A stretch of DNA of 64,000 nt from Dactylonectria macrodidyma (Eukaryota; Ascomycota; Sordariomycetes; Hypocreales; Nectriaceae): NCBI GenBank assembly GCA_020744425.1, contig JAGMUV010000011.1, forward strand, positions 248,001 to 312,000. The letters are read 5' to 3'. Under the pieces are notes generated by a model that saw nothing but the letters and a program-made list of their open reading frames with translations, did no database searches and was not told the DNA's origin. Every line of letters starts with the position of its first letter. Positions within the stretch are counted from its first letter, which is position 1. The position numbers were made by a program, and so were the translations under genes. Shown one piece after another: positions 24,767-63,310 of this stretch.

Positions 24767-27700
24767 TTAGGCAAAATTGTCCGATCGATCCACCCAGATG
24801 TCTTCCAGCTCCGCGAAGCTGTGGAAGTGGACCGGCCTGTGCTGGTCGCTGTAAAACGGAAGCGGTGTGTCAAGCTTGACAGGTACCGACTTCTTCTCCA
24901 TCCCGGCGAAGGCGGTGCCCATGAAACTGTAGTTCCACTTGCCATCGGCCGGGACCAGGAAGAAACCCCTGAATCTCGGGCTCAGCAGAAGTTTGCGCTT
25001 CTCACCCATCGTCGTCGTGAACCCCTGAGGCTGGTCGCTCTGCGTGTCCTTATTCTCCGCTCCCCATTTGTAGCCTGCAGGCGTGAGGCCCCAAGCAGAC
25101 AGCGACACGCTGCCGGGAGTGAACGAAACAGACACGGTTGCTGTGTTTGTCTTGTCCCATTCGGGGTGGGAGTCCAGAAGCTTCGAATGTTCCGTCACAT
25201 CCATCGCTGACATGTACGGGAGCTCGTTGCCAGATATGGTATGGATCACACCAAGTGGCTCCATGCCCTCAAGGTACTCGCTCTGCGGGAGCTGCTGTTG
25301 GAGCTGCACATTGCGCAGACCTCCAATCTGTGGGACCATGACGATACACTTGATCTCCTTGACTTGGTCGTTGTCGGGCGCCGATGAACCATAAAGGTAA
25401 CCAGCCACCTGCACCCTAAGATCAGCGATGGTTATGAACCGCTTTAGGATGTTGTTAGGCATAACATAGGTTATGTCATCGAGGTCGTTATCGACGGATG
25501 AAACATAAATGTTCTTAGCCCTAGTCCGCAGGTTCGATGTAGCAATGGCTCGCGTTCGCCATTCTGTCTTAGAGGCAAACGTCTGCTGCTCAAATTGCGA
25601 GGTCGTGGTCACGATTATCTCCTCGCCGTGCACGTTCTGAGTCTTGGTGGTCACCGCAGTCAACTGCTGCTGCTCTTGCTGCTGCTTCTCGATCTCCGCA
25701 GCCTGCTGTCGCTGCATGGATGGTGCAGAGATCTCCATGCCCAAGATGATGTCTCGTACCTCACTGCTCGTCAAACTGGAGACATTGACATTGTTCTTCT
25801 TCCCGTAGTCGTTCAGGATAAGATCTCGGAGTTGCGTCTCAACCTTGATCCAGTCCTCGTCCGATAGCGACGGCCAGATATGATGGTCATGGGTGATAAC
25901 AGTCTTATCGGGGCGGAGGATCAGCTTCGTCTTGTCGGGATTGACGTGCAGAGCGCGGAGAATCAGGACAAGACGGGAGAAGGCAGTGTAGGATGAGATG
26001 CTCTTGAGCCACTCATCGTATAGGTTGAAGAGAACCATCTGGGGTTCGGTGGCACGTAGAATCATGTCTCCCAGCTTCTCGACCTTCATGGCAGCCTGGA
26101 AGGGAAGCTGCAGCTCGGAGGCACGGATAGAAATGTTGGGGAAATCAAGCAGATGGACCTCAAGAGGATCCAATAGACCCTTTCGGGTCACGATAAGCTG
26201 TTTCGGTTGCTCTTCCACTGGCAGGGATCGAATCAAGGCAGCAACTTCTTCAGCAGTCTTCCACTTGGCCAGCTGGCCAAGACGCTTCTGTCCAGCCCAG
26301 ACACTGGTGTGGATAATCTTCAGGAAGAGCTGACCAGTGCGAGGGTTGAAGATGAAAATGGCACCATTGATCGGCTTGGTCGTCAAGTTGCCCTCAAACG
26401 TCTTGTGAATGGTAACACGGTAGACGTTGGTATCATCGATGAACAGCTGGGTCTGGTTGCTGAAGAGTTCAGAGTAGTTCTGTGAGTTCAGGAACTCTTG
26501 GTTGCTCTCCGAAGCATAGAGCTGCAGACCCTTGCGGATACGCTCACGCAGGACGTACAAAGCCGGGTTCGCCTTCATAACCTTGGCCATGGCCTGCTGG
26601 ACGAGTACCTTCAAGCCGGGGAAGTACATGCCGTAGGCGGAGTAGAGGTTGTACGCCAGATCAATACCAATCATGAGGCCTGTAGCGGAGGGGTAGATGC
26701 TAGCGCTGTCGGTAGTGTAGTCGAGGTACTTGGCGCGAGTGTACCGCTCGATGTCGTGAGAATCGTAATCGCCATAGCGGAGCTGCACATCAATCCAGAA
26801 CTTGTTGGTAGTAGTAGGCTCAATGACATCTTTGGTGTCGTAGAGGAGCGAGGGTCGCGTAACGTTCCACTTATGACTAGCAAAGAGCAGAATATCGGCA
26901 CAAGAGCTGTTCATCTTGTACGACTTTCGGGGGTGAATCGTTTCCTTCTGGACCGTCTCAATGCCAAGCGATTCCAATTCCTGGTCAAATACCTGACAAA
27001 GATCCATCACAACTGACTCGTGGATTTTCTGCCACAGATGGGCTCGGAAGATCTGGATGAGAGAGATCTTCAACGTCGGGATCTTTCCGTGGAGGAAGAT
27101 GCCGGTCAAATCCAGCTGGACCTGGAAACCAACATAGACGTTGGCTCTGTTGATCGTCGGCGACCACCACAAAGTGAAGCGACGATTAGGGATCTGATTC
27201 AAACCAGATCGTTGGGCGTTGGTGAGCTTTTTGAATTTCATCGATTCTTCAAAACCACTGTTGTGAAGCACTAGATAGTCGTGTCGTAGATAGAGCTGGT
27301 CCCGGTCAACACGGAACCCAGCCCATTGTGTCGTCTCTGGTTCCAGGATGATGTCCTTGATTATGAAACTATGAGCCTGGGGAATGAAGCGCTCTACTGC
27401 CTTTTTGCGCGTCAAAAGACAAGGAACCTCGCCCAAATTGCCGAATATCTGAGCGAAAAGTTGAGGATATTGCTCAGTGCGAGCTGGGTTCCACATCATT
27501 CGCCGCTTGGTCCAGACACTGAAGCCCAGGGAGCGAGCAAGGGCAACAGTATCCCAAAAGAGAGCCGAATGCCAGCGCTCGCTTTGGCTGAAGCCAAACA
27601 TGTTTTCGGGATAGACATACCAGCCATCGCTATCGAGCAAGCCTGCAAGCACTGCGAGACGGACAGATCGTGAGTTCCTCATGAACATCGTGGGGATACG

Positions 27701-30700
27701 TTTCTGGTCAATTTGGGGACCAGTCAATCCAGATTCCGTCAGTAGACCGAGCTGGCGCAGTGCCAGGAGAAGCGTGTTTATGCAGGAACCCTGTGCGCCG
27801 CTCACGATCTGCTCAGCAAGCTGCTCCTGTTCTTCCTCTTGCAAGGTACCGTATGCCCGATTACCAGGCTGTAGTCGAGTGATCTGATGGCTCTGGGGTG
27901 GGTCATCCTCGTCGTGACCTTCATCAATATCACTAAGGGTGTCCACCATGTCAAGGTATGCATCATGGACGTCGTCCAACTCCTCAGACACCATATCAGG
28001 AGACCCAACAAGACCCATGAGCTCCTCATCAGACCTCAGTTGAAAGAGGGCATCGTCGGGGATGGAACCAGCAGGAGAAGGACTGGGGTCCCGTAGGTTC
28101 ATCGAGGAGGCAAAAGACGAGTCCAACTCATGGTCGGCATTCCCGAATCGAGATCGTTGAGCGGAAACCGGAGGGGAGCTTGGAGGGCTCGAACTCAGGT
28201 GATGCTTGACGCCAGCCCCGGTTTCAGGACCTCCCATAGAATCCAGGGCTCCTGTGGAAGGAGGAACCCAAACCCGGGCCTCACCGGGTTGACGATCCAG
28301 CTGGAATGTCCACCCAGCATCAAGGCGTTGTTTGATGATCGTTTGTCGCGCCTGGCGTCTTTCCAGCCTGCCATGAACCCCTTGTTCGGCGGCTTGGGGC
28401 AGTGGGCGGTCCATGAGAGATGATCTTCCCACTATAGCGTACCCCAGTTGCCCATGCCACTCAAGTTGAAGGTCGAGCTCAGCAGCGTACCTAACGAGAA
28501 ACTCTCGAACCTCGGCCTCATGGCTCGAGTACACTGTTGTGGAGTGGCGGTTTCCATCACCAAGCCAAAGCCCAAGGAAGTATGGGTTACAGGGCACTGG
28601 TTCCTCGGAGAGATCAAAACCAGGGGACCTGAAAAGCCTGTGTTTAGCCCTCTCTTTGGGATCCAGGCTTGCGAACTCAGCTGCGGTCATCTCAACAGTA
28701 TCGTAACGCTCAGCTACAGAAACCTCTTGAAGTGTCAGGCTTGCGAGACTAGGATCCTCATCGGACTCATAACCCGAATCCTCGAGGTCGCTTTCGGGTT
28801 CAGGAGTGGAGCGTGGCAATGATGGGAACGCAAAATAACGTCCGTACTTCTTGTAGTTGCGGGAACACATCACTCGGATCCTCAGATTAGAGCCATTCTT
28901 GTTCCATAGGAGAGACATGTTCGGAAGCCCGGTGTCCAGTCTGAGCTCCCCCCCTTTACCATTCGCAGACTTGTCCAAGAACCGCTCACGGAGGCTGGTG
29001 AGGGTCACATCATTATCATCATGGATCTGACGGCTCTTGGTGACTGCAGCTGCAAAGGCATCCTCCTTCGTTGGGTAGAACGTTGGTGGGTGATCCACGT
29101 GTACTTTGAGATTTGTTCTCTCAGGGTTTCCCCAGGCGAAAGTGGCAAACTCAGCACGACTCCCACGCCCAACTGGCAGGTTGACAATGTACGATTCTTG
29201 TCGAGTTGTGATACCCGTGGTACCATTGAGCATGTTGCGAACTTGGGTGGCTCCGGAGCTGCCTCGCTCAGCGTTGAGGATCCAAGCAATGGCGCTCCTG
29301 AGAGCAGAGATGAAGGTTGGACGCTGCTTGACGAGATTGTTTGGATGATCTCCATCGGCAGGATCCGAGCTAGGCTCAGGCAAATCACCCATCTGGTCCT
29401 CAAAGCGTACACGATGATCCTGGGCAGAAGGGCCTTCATAAGTGTTGCCAGCACTCTTTTCCCTATGAAGGACCAGGATATGATTGGGGGTAACGACAAG
29501 ATCCTCCTTGCGGCTCCCGATCATGATGCGATAAAGGCGTTCCTGGCCTTTCACCACGTTAAAGGCGCGTCGTGGTCCTCCGTCTGGACCCAGAAGAAGA
29601 TCACCCTCCTGGACATCCTCAACCGCAACCTGAGAGTGGTCGTACCGAAGCAGCATAGTTCCATAAGCAAGGCAAGCCTTTTCCCAAAAGAGGCCTTCCC
29701 ACGATGGAAAACCAGTTGCTTTGAAGAGGGTGTGCTCAAGAATTGTCTCGACACCACCAAGCGCCTGGATGACGTCGGTGCGGTAAGCGTTTAGGTTCCA
29801 CAATTTTCCGTCATGGCGCTGGCTAGTCCACCAAAAAGGATTGCTCTTCATGAGCTGATAGATCTTGAACTCAGCTCGAGCGCGGAATCCCTTGTCGAAG
29901 CTCAGGGTGCTTCGGTCCTTCTGGAACAGGGTGTTGATACGGGGCAAACCACGATCCCAGCTATCCTCGAGATCCTCAAGCGTGAGACGACGGTTCTGTT
30001 GATTCGCTTCAAGGCGCTTCTGGGAGTACTCTGTCCAAACTCGCTGGGAGTCGATAAACTCGGCCTCCCAAGGGATGATGTAACGGAAAATGTTGGGAAT
30101 TAATGTCTCCTCGTCATGGGTCATACCAGCACGGTAGTGAGTGACACCAGTGTCAGTTTGTTTCGACCAACGCTTGTCACTGGCAGGAATCAAGATGTGA
30201 GAGCCTGAAATCATGCCAAGACCGCCAAGCTCCTTGGGGGTGTAGAAGACAGCAGGGGGAAAACGCGAAGGCATCTTGGAATTTAGACCAATCTTGACTC
30301 GGGTCTGAATCTTCGTCTCACACTTGACAATCGTGTCGAGCAGGTCAACGGTCGACACAGCCGCTTCTCGATAGTATGTGAAAAGCGCAATCAAAGCAGT
30401 GTTCCACTTGTTCGCGATCTTGGTGAACGTAGTGGATCCTGAAGACATGAGGATCTGTCGGATTCGGTTGTTAAACTTCTGAATGTCCTCCTCAGTAACT
30501 TGCAAAAAGGCGTGTGCAGTCCGCTCCTTGGTGGTGTTGTCGACAAGCGACCAAACGCTGTCCTTAACTGGGAACTCCTCGTTCGTGTTCCGAATCTTGG
30601 GCAGGATGCGGACCTCGAAGCCAGCCATCGAGAAGAGCAGATTCGGGTTGTCACGGCTGTACACGCTAACAAAGCTGTCATCCCAGTCAATTGTAGTGAC

Positions 30701-33700
30701 TGATCGGGGAAGGCGGTTCTTGATGTCCCAGAAGACAGCTCGACCCAGGTTCACATCATGTCGCATCAAGCGCATGCGAGAGTCTCTGGGCCAGCACTTC
30801 TTGCTCTTGTAGCCAATGACATTCTCGAAGTTAGGATCCGGCTGTTCCGTGAGAAACCGTTGAATGAGATCCCTTGACTCTTCGGCGGTAAATCGAAGGA
30901 AAATCCAGATTTTGTCGATGTATCGAGTGTACAGGCGGATCGGATGTCTAGTCTCCGTTTCACGATCGCGGAACTGCAGGAAATCGTTGGGGCTCTGGGG
31001 AGGTCCAGCAATCTCGCTGGCTCGCTGAGGGCCAAGGAGCAAAAGATCCAGGACAAGGCCGTAATATTGGAAAACGAATGCCGAGAATTGAAGACCTCGG
31101 ATCATGCCATAACTGTTGACATGGTTCATGTCCTTGTAGGTGAGTTGGACGTTGTTCTTGGCAGTGATGTAATCAGCCAAGTTGTGGTCCATGATCAGCC
31201 TCAGAAGAGAGTTGAGGAGAGTAAGTTCCATCTTCTCGTACACCTTAGAGAGCTCCGTCTCGATCATGACGTTGCACTCCCCATTCTCAGATTCCCAAAC
31301 ACCGCCCAAGTTGTTGATACCCTGAGCCCACTTGTACACCAGCAGCGGGGGAACCTCAGAATCAGATGGCTTGATCCATGCGGGGAAGAGATGTCGCTGA
31401 TCGGCCTGGTACCAGAGGTACTGGTCCAGGTAGGCATCACTGATCTTCTCAATGGGCTCGATATCATAGACGGGGTTGATGGTGCTGTAGTTATCGTTCA
31501 TGTCAATGTTGACCTCCTTGAAAGCTCGCTGAGTGAGCAAGAAACGCTTGATTCGCTCCAGAGTAGTGCCAGGGCTATCATATGCTTGCTCGATCAGGGC
31601 CAACTCTTCACGCTGGCTCTGGTTGAGACGCCCCTTAACTGAGTATGCCTCCCTGAGTCGCTCGAGCGCCAGAATCAGGATTTTCGTGTCGTGCTTGTAT
31701 GAAACACTGGGGAAAGGAATAGGAGAAAACTTGCGCGATTCCAGCCAGTGGACGGTAGTCGTGTAGATGGCAACAGCCTCTTCAGATGAGACATAGGGAC
31801 CATCCTTCATGTGGTTGTGCTGTCGCTCCTGCTCAGCCTTCAACCACAGTCGGGTCAATCGGCCAACGTTCTTCTTCGCCACAGTCTTATCAACCGTGGC
31901 ACCACGGCGAATACGCTCACGGTTGTAGTGAGCCACGGACACCCACCAGTCGGCCTTAGACTTAACATATCGGAGAATGATATTCTCGATAGGTGCAGGC
32001 AAGCCGGGGACCTTCCAGGGAATATTACTCTTCCAGCATCTCCACGCCTCAGACAGGTGCTGAAGGACAGTGTTGACCTTGTTTTGCTTGATTCCTTCAG
32101 GCATCATGTCCATTAAATCAGCCATGACGGAGGCGCGGAGTTCCAGATCGAAGTGAGACTCCACACGCTGTTTGGTAACAGTTTTTGCGACACCCTTACT
32201 GTGTCGGCCCTCGAACTGACGGGACAGCAGGTTGCCTAGCCATCTTTCGAGAAGAGGAATAATACCTCGCATGAAAAACAGCCAAACTCTCCAGGCAGGG
32301 GCCCAGAAACCACACCCAGGTCCCTTTCCAACAGGTCCAGAGTTGAATCGGTAGTAGATAAGATGCTTAAGATCCTTGCAGGTTCGGATTTGGTGCATCA
32401 GCTTGTACTTGTATCGGTACATACCCGTGAGCTGACCGACGTGGTTAAAGGCATACAGAATACCATCGGCAAGCTGGAAAGCGTCGATGTTGCCCAATCT
32501 GTACTGAACTTGTGCATCCACAATCAGCTTCGTTAACCTCAAGATTTCTCGCATAAGATGGAATGCATTTCCGAATCGAGACTTCTTTCGCTCCTTGGTG
32601 GTAAGGGTCTTGACGGGCTTCAAGTTAAAGTTGTAATCAAGATGAAGGTAAGTGAGGTTTTTGCGGTGGATGAGGAGGTTCAGCATGTTGAAACCCTGTC
32701 GACACACCTGAAGACCGGCTTCTACCCAGTCGATGGTGGTTTGCTGGAAGAACTTGGTCTGCTTCAGAGACTTCAGGAGGTTCTGCTTGTTCTGGGCCTT
32801 CGGTGTCTTCTTGTGAAGTTCGTTGAGAACATAGTTCTTCAACAGCTTCTGGTATGAGACTCGGACCTTAACTGGGGGGCGGTCGGAGGGAGCATGCTCT
32901 AGATACCACTGCTTAACCAGGGGAACGTCCTGAGCTCGAACCATTTGGCCTGAACGTCGATCGAAGGGAAACGGGGCCCACCAAAGTTCGACTGCGGCGG
33001 ATGTGTGCTCGTTCTCCAATTCCTCATCATCGAGGAATGGCTCAACACCGGCGGGGAGTTCAAAAGCGTCCTCCTCTGGCTCCTCATTATTTCCAGGACC
33101 AAATAACTCATCCTCGAGTGACACTACAACATTCTTGGACGCAACCGTTCGAGATGAAATAGGGTTGATGCGGCGGTCAAAGTGGAAGGTCGGGAGATCG
33201 GGATCATCGGCTCGGTTGAAGACAATCTGAGGGTGAGACTGCCAAGACTGGTGGACACTTCTCGGGAGAGAGTTGTAGAGATATGGGAATGCGACCCGGA
33301 ATTCTGTTCGGATCGGGTTTCTAAAGATGATGCGATCAATCGCGTTGAACTCACCAAAGTCTTCGTCGTTTGGGTCAATGTCTTTGTACAGGGGTTCGAA
33401 TCGAGGACCACCGGGGAGGGCAACGTTGAGCGCCTTGGCTGAGAGAAGACTCTTCAGTTCAAACAGGTAGAAGTAGTTCTTATCCACGACATCGGAAACG
33501 AGAGGTCGACTGAGACGGAAGAGCGCCGCCATCTGTGGCAAAGTAAGGTTCCACGACTTGTAACTGGGCCCATTGACGTGGGGTGTGTCCAGCAAAGGTC
33601 GGTGGTCGTAGAACCACTCGTAGATGGCCTCGTCATCCTCCTCGTCCAGCTCCATCTGAATGGGCTCCAATGGTTCGACGTCTTCGATGTTCTCGGACCA

Positions 33701-34288
33701 TGACAGTGGCGGTTCTTCGTCATCGAATGGCGGGAATCGCATGCGCTTAAATAACCTTCGGTCGGCTTTCTCTTTTCGCATGAAAGTCCACATCATTGCC
33801 CACTGTGCAAAAAATACCGGCTCGATGACTCGAGGGATCTCGTTGACCAGTGTCAGACAACCGTTCACGTGGTAGAGAACCTTCACTTCACGTGCAGATT
33901 CCCATGGCATAGGCATGTTCTCGAGGAGCTTCAGAACCGCATGGGGCATGAACTTGAGCGCTCCAAGGTAGCTACGCTTGTCGTTCGTATACTTTTTCTG
34001 CGACACATCGCCAATGTCCTTGACAATCTTTCGCAAATGCTCGGGGGGCATATCGGCCTTCTGAGACTGTACAAAGCCGCCCTTGCGCTTCTCGCCGAAG
34101 CGGTTGCGCTGGGTCCGGAGCCATTCCTTCTTCTTCTGTGCGAACTTTGCGATCTGGGGATCGGTCGGGGGACGATAGCCTGGAGGAGGAGGCGCCGGAG
34201 TCGATGGGGGAGGCGGGAGAGAAGACGAAGGAGGAGGTGGAGGTGGAGGACCCCAGCCTGGGGGTGGCGGCGGAGGGGGCTGCGACAT
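24767..34288 (-). CDS. PRP8: Pre-mRNA splicing factor Prp8 (U5 snRNP) containing an intein
   Basis: Central scaffold of the spliceosome catalytic core. One uninterrupted frame of 3173 codons; removing the 805-residue intein (27260-29674) leaves 2368 residues, the normal size of fungal Prp8. It starts [13 protein letters not shown], the usual proline-rich head. The N-terminal domain includes [16 protein letters not shown]. The reverse-transcriptase-like and linker regions precede GLFWEKA at about residue 1538. After the intein the chain resumes with [19 protein letters not shown] and continues through the endonuclease-like and RNase H-like domains. The C-terminal Jab1/MPN-like domain contains [20 protein letters not shown], and the chain ends in [14 protein letters not shown]. 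No intron was seen in 9.5 kb. The host protein can only work if the intein removes itself after translation, since the insertion sits in a core region. Divergent from the complex I gene. Confidence 0.97.
27260..29674 (-). mobile_element. Full-length Prp8 intein with LAGLIDADG homing endonuclease
   Basis: In-frame protein intron of 805 residues (Prp8 residues 1539-2343) between N-extein ..GLFWEKA and C-extein SGFEESMKF.., the site used by most fungal Prp8 inteins. Splicing residues are all present: Cys1 ([12 protein letters not shown]), the block B motif TPNH, and the C-terminal His-Asn (HDYLVLHN) followed by Ser+1. The endonuclease carries two dodecapeptides with their acidic residues: FLGLWLGDG at about intein residue 365 and LAGLLDSDG at about 678. 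The conserved lead-in [17 protein letters not shown] precedes the second. Two segments go beyond the minimal plan: roughly residues 95-285 between block B and the first dodecapeptide, and an acidic, Ser/Pro-rich, probably disordered linker of about 200 residues between the dodecapeptides. There is no stop or frameshift, so both splicing and homing activity are plausible; activity itself is inference. Confidence 0.95.
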
Positions 34289-36573: not shown

Positions 36574-36908
36574 GTCGTATGTTGTTCACCACATGAGATT
36601 ATCGAAAAGCCCTTCTTCATTTAGTTATCTTCAGTTGCAATGTTGGAGACATGCAGGTTCCGGGATGCTTGATGTTGTCGCTAGGCACGGAGGCTCACTT
36701 CGAAACTAGCCGGGGTATTTCCGTAATCGATAATCAGGCATGTGGTGATCTCTCTGGCAACTTACACTCTTTGCGACATCTCGATCAATCAAGTCAACAA
36801 TAAAAATCACTTGACCGGCTGCTTTTATTTGCATTGCCGAGAAAGAGCTCTACCGATCAAACCTACGAACGACGATCCTGACCTCCAGAGGGCCTCTCAC
36901 CCGCAAAT
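36574..36908. promoter_or_regulatory. Divergent promoter of SAP18 and PRP18
   Basis: 335 bases between two opposed start codons, so the two nuclear RNA/chromatin genes share a control region. No specific site is claimed. Confidence 0.6.
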
Positions 36909-38006
36909 ATGGATTTCGCAGCGTTGATGAACAAGGAGATGGCCAAGTCCAAGAAGAACGGCAGCGGCGACAAAAAGTTCCTCAAGCGCTCCGAAGTCGA
37001 AGCCCAGCGCAAGGAGGCATACATAGCCGAACAAAAAGCCCTCGAGGCCGAGCGCGAAGCCAAAGCGGCCGCCAAGCGCAAGCGAGAAGAGGACGTCGCC
37101 GCCGAGACGGCCATCCGCGAGGAGAAGCGTCGCAAGCTCGCCGAAGAGTCGCGCAAGCGTCAGGAGGAGAAGGAGCTCGAGGAGGAGCGCGTGCGGCGCA
37201 AGCGGCTCGGCCTGCCGGAGCTGGTGAGGAAGACGAGCGAGGAGGACGAACAGGACGCCGCTGCTGGAGGAGAGGATATACCAGAAGAGGAGCTGGCTAC
37301 CAAGCTGCGAGCGCTAGGGGAGCCGGTTGCCTTGTTCGGAGAGGGACATGGGGCGCGGCTGAGGCGGTATAGGAAGTTGACGACAGTGATGACCAAGGGG
37401 CCGATCCCGACAACTCTACAGCTGGTGGAAGAGAAGGATATGAAGGTGGACGGCAAGGTGCCGCAAGATAAAGAAGGCCGAGATTGGCTCTTCCGGCAGC
37501 TGGCGAGCTACTTCACAATGGTTCTCACAGAGTACGAGAGAGCAATGGAGGCAGAGAAGCGGGAGACGAGCGCGAGCAAGACGGCTTACAACGCTATGGT
37601 GCAAACGCGTGAAAACATGAAGCCGGTACGTTCTTCATCTATGGCACTGCAGACCTACTGAGGCTGACACTACTGAACACAGCTCTTCCGCAAATTCGAA
37701 CAAGGCGACCTCGATGACTCCATCATCCAGCCCGTCATTGAGATCGTCCAGGCATTACAGGAAAGGCGGTACGTCGATGCCAACGACGGGTATCTGCGCC
37801 TCAGTATTGGCAAGGCAGCGTGGCCCATTGGTGTAACCATGGTGGGTATCCACGAGCGCAGCGCCCGCGAGAAACTGCACAACGGCGAAAAAGGTCATGT
37901 TATGGGAGACGAGGTAACTCGCAAGTACCTGCAGAGCATCAAGCGCTGCCTCACATTCGCCCAAGTGCGGTGGCCGCCCACGGATCTTCGGCAGTTGATG
38001 GGCTGA
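36909..38006 (+). CDS. PRP18: Pre-mRNA splicing factor 18 (Prp18)
   Basis: Second-step splicing factor that works with Slu7 and the U5 snRNP to position the 3' splice site. Two exons: 36909-37625 and 37683-38006 joined in phase 0 across a 57-nt intron; 346 residues. The N-terminal half is a highly charged helical region rich in Lys/Arg/Glu (about residues 15-105). It is followed by the SFM/PRP4-like motif (IPEEELATKLRALGEPVALFGEGHGARLRRYRKL, about 125-160). The Prp18 helical domain occupies about 190-335 with WLFRQLASYF, the conserved loop region YLRLSIGKAAWPIGVTMVGIHERSAREKL and KRCLTFAQVRWPP. The order of domains is exactly that of the family. Confidence 0.95.
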
Positions 38007-59994: not shown

Positions 59995-62900
59995 ATGGTA
60001 CTGCCCCGTTGGACGCCTCTCCTGATTCATGAGCAATTGCTGAATCCCGTCTCTAGGTTCTCTTTAAGAGGAAACCAGTCCAATTCCTGCCTCCAGCGGT
60101 TTTCGAGGATGAGAACACCGAGGTACGACCGTCGCCTTTGCAGAACTTTGAAAGGTCACCCGAAGGCTGACTTTTTTCATTTAGGTCTGGCATATACCCC
60201 AGACAGGGGAGATATTCGCTTCCTATGAGGATTATCTGACCCGGTAAGTGCTCCCTACGCCTCCTTTCGGGATTTCTCTAGCTTACACAGCATCTAGCAT
60301 GGACTTTTATAAACAGGTACTACCACGTTACTCCGATTTCAACCCGTAGCATCCCCGCTTACCACAGTGACGCAGCGCCGCTTCAATGACCAAATCACAG
60401 GACACTCAGGTTTGACCTTTTTCGAGGCTTTTAAGAGTGAGGTTTGTGTTATCGACCATCCCTCATAGGCATGCGCTCACACCCAGAACAGCTTGCCGGA
60501 GGCAAAGAAGTCGAAGCTTCATTCCCCGAAGCACTCAAGGGTCCTATCCTGCGAAAAGTTCAGTTCCAGATCGTTTCTCGTCTCGATAACCTCGTTGATC
60601 AGATTTACGAAGAATTCAAGCACGACTACTACCCCGGCGAGGAGGTGACCGTCACCATGGATGGCGGTGACCGAGTTCATGGCCTGGTCCGCGACAAGAC
60701 TACCTTTGGGCCGAGAACCCTTCACGATGGCACACAGGCCTTACCCACGACCCGATACATAGTCGATCTTAAGGAGTCGGAGTCGGAGACGTTTGTGACA
60801 GACGAGCACATTTGCCGCGATCGAGGCATCTTCACCAAGGCCATGCTCAGGTCATTTATCAAGAAAACTGTAACCCGCGATGCGTGGAACGGTGCTCCTT
60901 GGCTAGTTAAGCACGATTACGCTGGCCAGTACCACATCGACACTCGGGTCCCACCTCATCTTCGCTATGATACCAAGGTCCAGGAGCGCAAGCAACTTCA
61001 GGCTCAGAAACGCGCAAGCCTCCCGCACGAAACAAACGGCCACAGTCCTTCGACAGGTCTCAATTCTGGCCCGATGCGGCTCCCAGAGCTGAAGCCCGCG
61101 CCAAAGGGTAAGTCCAAGCTTGGCCAGCCTGGACCGGGGACAAAGGCCCTCAAGTGGCCCCTCAACATACCTGTGCACGGCGGCAATCCCTTCAGCTACC
61201 CGCCCAATCACTACGACCAGACGCCTCCCCAGCGCGAGCCTACTCCGCCGCCACCACCGCCGCCACCTCCCAAGTACCCTATCGAGGACTTGCAGCTTGA
61301 CCCGCGGGAGGATCGCAAACGCCCGCCTCTCAAGTATCTATGCATAAACCCGCCTGTGGAGGTAGAAAATGGGCATTTGGAAGACACCGATGTCGATATG
61401 GACTCTGTTGGCCCGTTGTTGGAGACATGGGATACACTAAATGTGTACTGCGAGGTTTTCAAGCTGGATTCTTTCACTTTTGACGATTTTGTCCAGACAC
61501 TGTCCGTTGCGTCTGAAGAGGTCCCTGTTCAACTTTTCGAGGAGATCCACTGCTCCGTGCTCAAAATCCTTGTCGATTCTGAGGCGGATGGCGGTAAGGT
61601 CCGAATCAACTTGCCGGAGATTGAGGAGGATGACAGCGATGAGGACGACGAAGACGACGAGAACGAGACTGCGGAGCCCACCCCTGAGCCCGAACCGAAA
61701 CCTGTGGGGCGTGCTACTAGGAGTAGCATGGCTAGACTTGAAGCCGAGAGATTGGCTGCCGAGATTGCTGCCGCCGAGGCAGAGGACGAAACTGCCGACG
61801 AGGAGGTCAAGCACCGCGCCGAGGAACTCCTCAAGGACTACGATTGGATCGAGCACCTCCGAAAACGCGATTTCGCCAATGGAGGCTGGGAACGAATCAT
61901 TGTTGGACTTCTCCACCAGTTGTCTAAGAACGAGCGCCAGCAGGAGGCTTGCGAAGAGCTTCTATTTCAACTTGTCCCGGCTGATGTGGACCCCACGCAG
62001 GACACAGTGCGGCAGGCATATGCGGAGCTGAATGTCAACCTCCGTGTCAAGGCACTACAAATTCTCTGCATGCTGACAACAGAGACCAAAGCCATTCGCG
62101 GCTACATGGAGGACTGCAGCGAAACCATGACGACTTACCGCAAGGAGAAGATTGAATGGCAGAGACAGCGGAAGCAAGCGTAAGTACTTTCTACTAGCGA
62201 TGAGAGCGAAAAGTGCTGACTGACGGGCCCAGTGTCGAAGATCTACGCCAGTTGAATGAGCAGCGAAAGATTCTCCTACCAGATAACATGCCACCTTCGC
62301 CAGTACTCACTCCTGCCAAGGAACTTGAGGATGTAAAGATGACAGACGCGGATGAGTCGCACATCTCAAGGGACGAAAATGGAGAGGAGACTGAGGAGGA
62401 TACCGCGGCACGGAGGAAGCGGAGACGGGCACTGTCGACTAAACAGCGGAAGCGCGAGGAGGAGCAGGCCAAGAAGGAAAAGGAGAAGAAGATTGAGAAG
62501 CCACCCAAGCCGCCGCCTCAATCAAAGCAGTTCATCAAGCTGCTCAAGGATATCCAGAAGAAGGAGGACTTCATCAAGAACTGTGAGGAAGAGATTGCCG
62601 TTCTCGACAACGACCTGCGCGAAGCTGATTGTCCCCGAACCCGAGTCTTGGGCAAGGATCGATTCTGGAATCGGTACTATTGGTTTGAGCGGAATGGCAT
62701 GCCGTACGGCGGACTTCCAGATAGCTCAACAGCCTCGGCGGATTATGCCAACGGATGCATTTGGGTACAAGGGCCTGATGAGTTGGAGCGCGAGGGGTAC
62801 ATTGACCTACCCACCGATTTGCAGGACGAGTATAAGGCCAAGTTCAACATGACGGTTCCGGAGCGGAAGAAGATGGAAGAGGGCAACACAAGTGTTTACA

Positions 62901-63310
62901 ATGCCCGCCAGTGGGGGTATATCTCTGAGCCAGAGCATGTCGATTCTCTGATCAAGTGGCTGGATCCGCGTGGACTTAACGAATTGCGCCTCCGCAAGGA
63001 ACTGCTCAACTACAAGGAGAAGATTGCCAAGCACATGGAGAACCGGAAGAAGTATCTCGCGGAGAGCGAGGAACCCGAGAAGAAGGAAGAGAACAAGCGG
63101 ATGAGCACGCGAATCCGTGATAAGACACCGGAGCCTCCCAACTACCGATGCCTCCAGTGGGAGAATACGACTGCGCTTGAGGAGGTCGGGCATCTTCATA
63201 GCGATCCGCCGCCCCCACCGAGGGCGAGAAAGCAGACCAAGAAGCGAGAGGCGATGAGCGAGGCGGCATCAGGCCCGGCACCGAAGACACGCCGCCGCCG
63301 AGGAGGTTAA
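59995..63310 (+). CDS. ITC1: ISW2 chromatin-remodelling complex accessory subunit (Itc1/ACF1-type)
   Basis: Partner of the ISWI ATPase that directs nucleosome sliding. Seven exons: 59995-59997, 60057-60122, 60185-60243, 60298-60316, 60376-60441, 60492-62179 and 62233-63310 (2979 nt, 992 residues). The first exon is only the ATG, followed directly by GTACTG. The join gives M-VLFKRKPVQFLPPAVFEDENTE then VWHIPQTGEIFASYEDYLTR, MDFYKQ, RRFNDQITGHSGLTFFEAFKSE and LAGGKEVEASFPEALKGPIL, which is the WAC domain (about residues 20-130). The DDT domain is at about 375-440 (WDTLNVYCEVFKLDSFTFDDFVQTL). WHIM1-like residues follow near 520-560 and the WSD motif DRFWNRYYWF near 778. Acidic runs and basic tails occur between domains. 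The fourth exon is only 19 nt; small exons were accepted because they restore conserved blocks in phase. Confidence 0.93.

Follow-up and report, generated by a model that had tools for sequence, protein, structure and literature searches.

The stretch analysed here, a window of 64,000 nucleotides from contig JAGMUV010000011.1 of the filamentous fungus Dactylonectria macrodidyma, contains on its minus strand the gene for the splicing factor Prp8, and this PRP8 gene is interrupted by a predicted full-length intein (Table 1). PRP8 is a single intron-free and stop-free frame of 3173 residues, in which the insert accounts for 805 residues (2415 bases, in frame and without a stop codon) and the ligated host protein for 2368. 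Seven Prp8 families of Pfam were detected above cut-off (PRO8NT, PROCN, RRM_4, U5_2-snRNA_bdg, U6-snRNA_bdg, PRP8_domainIV and PROCT). PROCT matched once in the whole genome (77.28 Mb in 77 contigs), indicating a single detectable Prp8, and a second PRP8 copy was rejected on this ground. The calculated masses are 364 kDa for the precursor, 274.2 kDa for the ligated host protein and 90.2 kDa for the intein, in agreement with the values of about 270 and 90 kDa that a first-pass annotation of this DNA had given for the last two.

The same annotation had described an in-phase interruption of 805 residues without a stop, and both its extent and its coordinates proved exact; the strand of the gene, which had been left unsaid, is the minus strand. 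Judged by the base composition of the insert alone, a run of 805 codons free of stops would arise with a probability of approximately 7e-15. The remaining five frames across the insert contain 22, 56, 9, 31 and 37 stops. The insert sits between WEKA at the end of the N-extein and SGFEES at the start of the C-extein, which we take to be the letters flanking site a. Alignment with solved Prp8 chains showed that the flanking host residues are adjacent to each other in both yeast (1578/1579) and human (1506/1507) Prp8, and the yeast position, in the 1585 loop, upheld the earlier assignment of the insertion to the Prp8 'a' site. A study on Cryptococcus inteins assigns site a, which holds approximately 100 Prp8 inteins, to the 1585 loop, and modelling of the Cryptococcus intein leads to an expected interruption of Prp8 there (PMC6805012).

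In an alternative reading, a spliceosomal intron that is open by chance makes up all or part of the insert. The sole sequence support for such an intron is a weak codon signal at approximately residues 361–540 of the insert, and it is opposed by three results: no GT–AG register within 8 nt of the insert ends removes 2415 nt, strict fungal intron candidates numbered 0 in the insert vs 1 in the host frame, and homology to inteins was found at both ends of the insert. An RNA intron was thus rejected on junction and consensus grounds, and we regard it as highly improbable. Because no GT–AG register removes the 2415 nt, the insert would be removed at the level of protein rather than RNA.

The residues expected for protein splicing are all present, namely Cys1, T62-P-N-H65 of block B, His804, Asn805 and Ser+1, as the first-pass annotation had listed them. 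Cys1, TxxH, the terminal asparagine and the +1 residue are among the splicing features described in the text cited (PMC6805012). When the intein was compared with PDB sequences using phmmer, the best matches were the Prp8 inteins 6mwy, 6mx6 and 6owu (E-values 3e-33 to 2e-32), with three aligned stretches per chain, which for 6mwy were collinear at residues 1–84, 306–360 and 772–805. The 6mwy and 6mx6 chains, for which the PDB molecule name is Prp8, are presumably from Cryptococcus species. Chains of PI-SceI (the yeast VMA1 intein) and of VMA1 ranked below them (E 1.6e-10 and weaker). The Pfam model Hom_end_hint matched the intein alone with 33.5 bits against a cut-off of 32.1. The whole intein also gave sub-threshold matches in PHROGs (DNA primase, E 0.004; terminase, E 0.024 and 0.31; an unknown family, E 0.11) and in NCBIfam (rSAM_Tes_intein, E 0.068, far below the cut-off), which are presumably traces of inteins inside those families.

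Endonuclease blocks C, D, E and H are present in this order, and the two LAGLIDADG motifs proposed earlier were located in blocks C and E. Hom_end matched the intein alone with 28.5 bits (cut-off 21.1), and PI-SceI matched the intein piece 330–805 across the endonuclease blocks with an E-value of 1.3e-05. Both active-site aspartates (Asp373 and Asp683) and the block D lysine (Lys658) are retained. Butler et al. 2006 (PMC1508164) give Asp218 and Asp326 of PI-SceI, the counterparts of the two aspartates, as metal-binding active-site residues. A lysine in block D is named in another source as a putative active-site residue (PMC10849329).

Table 1. Features of the PRP8 gene and its predicted intein, in positions of the window; residue numbers are those of the intein unless stated otherwise
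Feature	Position	Strand	Basis
PRP8 gene, intein included	24767..34288	-	Open frame, Pfam domains
Predicted Prp8 intein, 805 residues (precursor residues 1539-2343)	27260..29674	-	Boundaries, Pfam, phmmer, motifs
N-terminal splicing domain, residues 1-84	29423..29674	-	Aligned to 6mwy and 6mx6; motifs
Cys1 codon	29674-29672	-	Motif check
Block B, T62PNH65	29491-29480	-	Motif check
Post-block-B insertion, residues 85-318 (234 residues)	28721..29422	-	Borders from 6mx6 alignment
Conserved stretch before block C, residues 319-360, common to Cryptococcus mini-inteins	28595..28720	-	phmmer
LAGLIDADG motif 1 (block C), LGLWLGDGN, residues 367-375	28550..28576	-	PI-SceI alignment
Asp373 codon	28558-28556	-	Opposite PI-SceI Asp218
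C-to-D stretch, 281 residues, partly acidic and Ser/Pro-rich	27707..28549	-	Block positions
Block D, QKRIP, residues 657-661	27692..27706	-	PI-SceI alignment
Lys658 codon	27703-27701	-	Opposite PI-SceI residue 301
LAGLIDADG motif 2 (block E), residues 676-685	27620..27649	-	PI-SceI alignment; Pfam Hom_end 660-725
Asp683 codon	27628-27626	-	Opposite PI-SceI Asp326
Block H, residues 707-718	27521..27556	-	Letter assigned from place in PI-SceI alignment
Intein C-terminal part	27260..27361	-	phmmer alignment, motif check
Ser+1 codon	27257..27259	-	Motif check

Taken together, these results suggest that the insert is very probably a full-length Prp8 intein that excises itself as a protein, and that both splicing and endonuclease activity are likely. 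PRP8 would be translated as a 364-kDa precursor including the intein, which would then self-excise via Cys1, His65 of block B, Asn805 and Ser+1. The two halves of Prp8 would thereby be ligated into a 274-kDa protein and a 90-kDa intein set free. The host would depend on this splicing, as Prp8 is essential and its 1585 loop is where the insert lies. The freed intein would probably in turn cut PRP8 alleles that lack an intein, at the unoccupied site, with repair copying the intein in. We hold this homing half with more reserve than the splicing half, as the better supposition rather than a firm one. A precedent is the Prp8 intein of Botrytis cinerea, for which 100% homing efficiency in crosses is mentioned in the passage cited of a later paper (PMC3158057, citing Bokor et al. 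2010).

Several observations weigh against a splicing and homing-competent intein. The Hom_end_hint score on the full 3173-residue protein was 30.6 bits, just under the cut-off of 32.1, and the Intein_splicing model (PF14890) missed the 805-residue intein. The alignment with PI-SceI is weak, its two pieces scoring 12.5 and 12.9 bits. Single-sequence structure predictions were unusable, with a mean predicted local distance difference test score of 33.8 for the intein and 31.6 for residues 136–297. The GC content at third codon positions (GC3) is 0.55 in the insert vs 0.65 in the host. When 19 windows of 60 codons across the intein were given a host-trained codon score, it was below zero in four windows (starts 361, 401, 441 and 481), and in four (starts 1, 361, 401 and 481) another frame outscored the coding frame. 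Finally, in VMA inteins a long spacing between blocks C and D (up to approximately 160 vs approximately 80 residues) goes with an inactive endonuclease, as described in the section cited of Butler et al. (PMC1508164). The dips in codon score would fit a loosely constrained stretch or, improbably, a small hidden intron, of which no strict consensus candidate was found, and the lower GC3 is ambiguous, being explained equally well by weaker codon selection.

The explanation that competes most closely with ours shares its splicing half and differs in the homing half only: the intein would be splicing-competent with its endonuclease dead or fixed, vertically inherited without homing, and kept open only since PRP8 is essential. 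According to Butler et al., the frame of an intein that interrupts an essential gene has to remain open although its endonuclease may be dead, and two inactive VMA endonucleases of Torulaspora keep both aspartates (PMC1508164). The open frame by itself is thus weak evidence of activity, because the essential host gene forces it regardless. The VMA relationship between long C–D spacing and inactivity, the weak codon signal around residues 361–540 and the lower GC3 could be read in the same direction. On the other side stand the retention of Asp373, Lys658 and Asp683 and a C–D spacing of 281 residues that lies within the range of Prp8 inteins. We consider a dead or fixed endonuclease to be a serious possibility, albeit one that we do not favour.

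The first-pass annotation had gone further and read the intact copy as a sign of recent homing or active maintenance. Its description of a full-length intein with complete motifs at the usual fungal site stood, whereas neither recent homing nor active maintenance was shown by the sequence here. One form of that idea is a recent arrival by horizontal transfer, with which a GC3 unlike that of the host and the detection of no other intein in the genome would agree. The GC3 gap, however, is accounted for just as well by weaker codon selection, and Butler et al. report no evidence for horizontal transfer within euascomycetes; in their view the inteins are old, have been passed on vertically and have kept active endonucleases (PMC1508164). 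This view speaks against a recent arrival and is in line with active maintenance, and we judge horizontal transfer to be unlikely.

Searches of the whole genome with the intein and with Hom_end_hint, both admitting E-values up to 10, and with Hom_end, admitting E-values up to 1, returned only the present copy, although further inteins could be missed because the search was heuristic and proceeded exon by exon. Intein_splicing had no match genome-wide, which is a weak negative since this model misses the present intein too. As a single Prp8 and a single intein were detected, this genome shows no empty allele. In the collection viral_contigs, 13 stretches matched a pattern with the intein as query and none was confirmed by tblastn; in genome_contigs, with the whole protein as query, the figures were 113 and none. 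These two negatives say little, because the collections are viral and prokaryotic.

The post-block-B insertion of the predicted intein has no counterpart in the aligned Cryptococcus inteins, and residues 84–330 had no match in Pfam, PHROGs or PDB. The only tandem repeat found in the intein was a 19-bp match of 2.2 copies, at the lowest score setting. By eye, residues 130–300 (28775–29287, minus strand) resemble a folded domain of strands and helices rather than filler. An AP2-like strand–helix pattern, suspected by eye in the insertion, was set aside as Pfam, PHROGs and PDB gave no match. It is conceivable, at long odds, that the insertion folds on its own as a DNA-binding module and aids target recognition by the endonuclease. 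If so, large Prp8 inteins would be three-part machines for splicing, cutting and aiming, and not inteins with filler.

Two long open frames run antisense to PRP8, at 29021–29794 (plus strand, 257 residues), overlapping the start of the intein, and at 30944–31642 (plus strand, 232 residues); both are possibly by-products of codon use. Elsewhere in the window, where 20 of the 48 frames were scanned with Pfam, a PRP4-like domain (PF08799, 45.2 bits) was found in an open frame at 36882–37658 (plus strand), approximately 2.6 kb from the start of PRP8, so that two splicing-factor genes lie close together. At 60441–63307 (plus strand), two consecutive frames carry DDT, WAC_Acf1 and WHIM1 domains and then WSD domains, and probably belong as exons to a single Itc1-like gene for chromatin remodelling. 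A fungal-specific transcription-factor domain (96.2 bits) was also detected, which, like the kind of intein, points to a fungal host.

The present case adds one intact large Prp8 intein to a class with earlier reports of homing in crosses, and alleles from the same species could reveal whether its endonuclease is being maintained. The post-B insertion is a further example for the question of what role the long insertions and linkers play, as raised by Butler et al. 2006 (PMC1508164) and Green et al. 2018 (PMC5784728). The earlier statement that most fungal lineages have no such element, or one reduced to a mini-intein, holds as a tendency, but there are many known full-length copies, those of filamentous ascomycetes at this site measuring 517–838 residues. 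Those included in Table 1 of Butler et al., as far as it is drawn on here, are from Aspergillus nidulans (605 residues), N. fischeri (517), A. fumigatus (819), H. capsulatum (534–535), P. brasiliensis (573), B. cinerea (838) and C. laurentii (522) (PMC1508164).

Going by published descriptions, the predicted intein is most like the Prp8-a inteins of A. fumigatus and B. cinerea, which it resembles in size class, block order, the post-B insertion and the two aspartates. The relevant section of Butler et al. describes for Prp8 inteins a conserved stretch of approximately 40 residues ahead of block C and a C–D spacing of 212–300 residues, a range that includes the 281 found here, and reports a post-B insertion of 203 residues in A. 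fumigatus with a similar one in B. cinerea, the latter being given as 206 residues in a figure legend and as 33 residues longer than that of A. fumigatus in the text (PMC1508164). The insertion of approximately 234 residues found here was compared with these by length and place, and the motif borders used in that paper may differ from ours.

With the mini-intein of Cryptococcus neoformans and C. gattii, the D. macrodidyma intein has in common an alignable splicing domain at both ends and the stretch before block C, whereas that mini-intein, described as approximately 170 residues long in the source as cited, lacks both the endonuclease and the post-B insertion. PI-SceI (1dfa) shares the architecture of a Hint domain plus a LAGLIDADG endonuclease, and the active-site residues line up, but it occupies another host gene and site, and active VMA inteins have approximately 80 residues between blocks C and D vs 281 here. 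Green et al. use the term HEN(+)extra for Prp8 inteins of more than 800 residues whose linkers have no known origin or function (PMC5784728), and the 805 residues, 234-residue post-B insertion and 281-residue C–D stretch place the present intein in this group. Some HEN(+)extra linkers carry repeats, whereas the present intein has only the one minimal match. By these comparisons, the D. macrodidyma element is a new full-length Prp8 intein, as predicted from its sequence, of the A. fumigatus and B. cinerea size class and ordinary for its kind.

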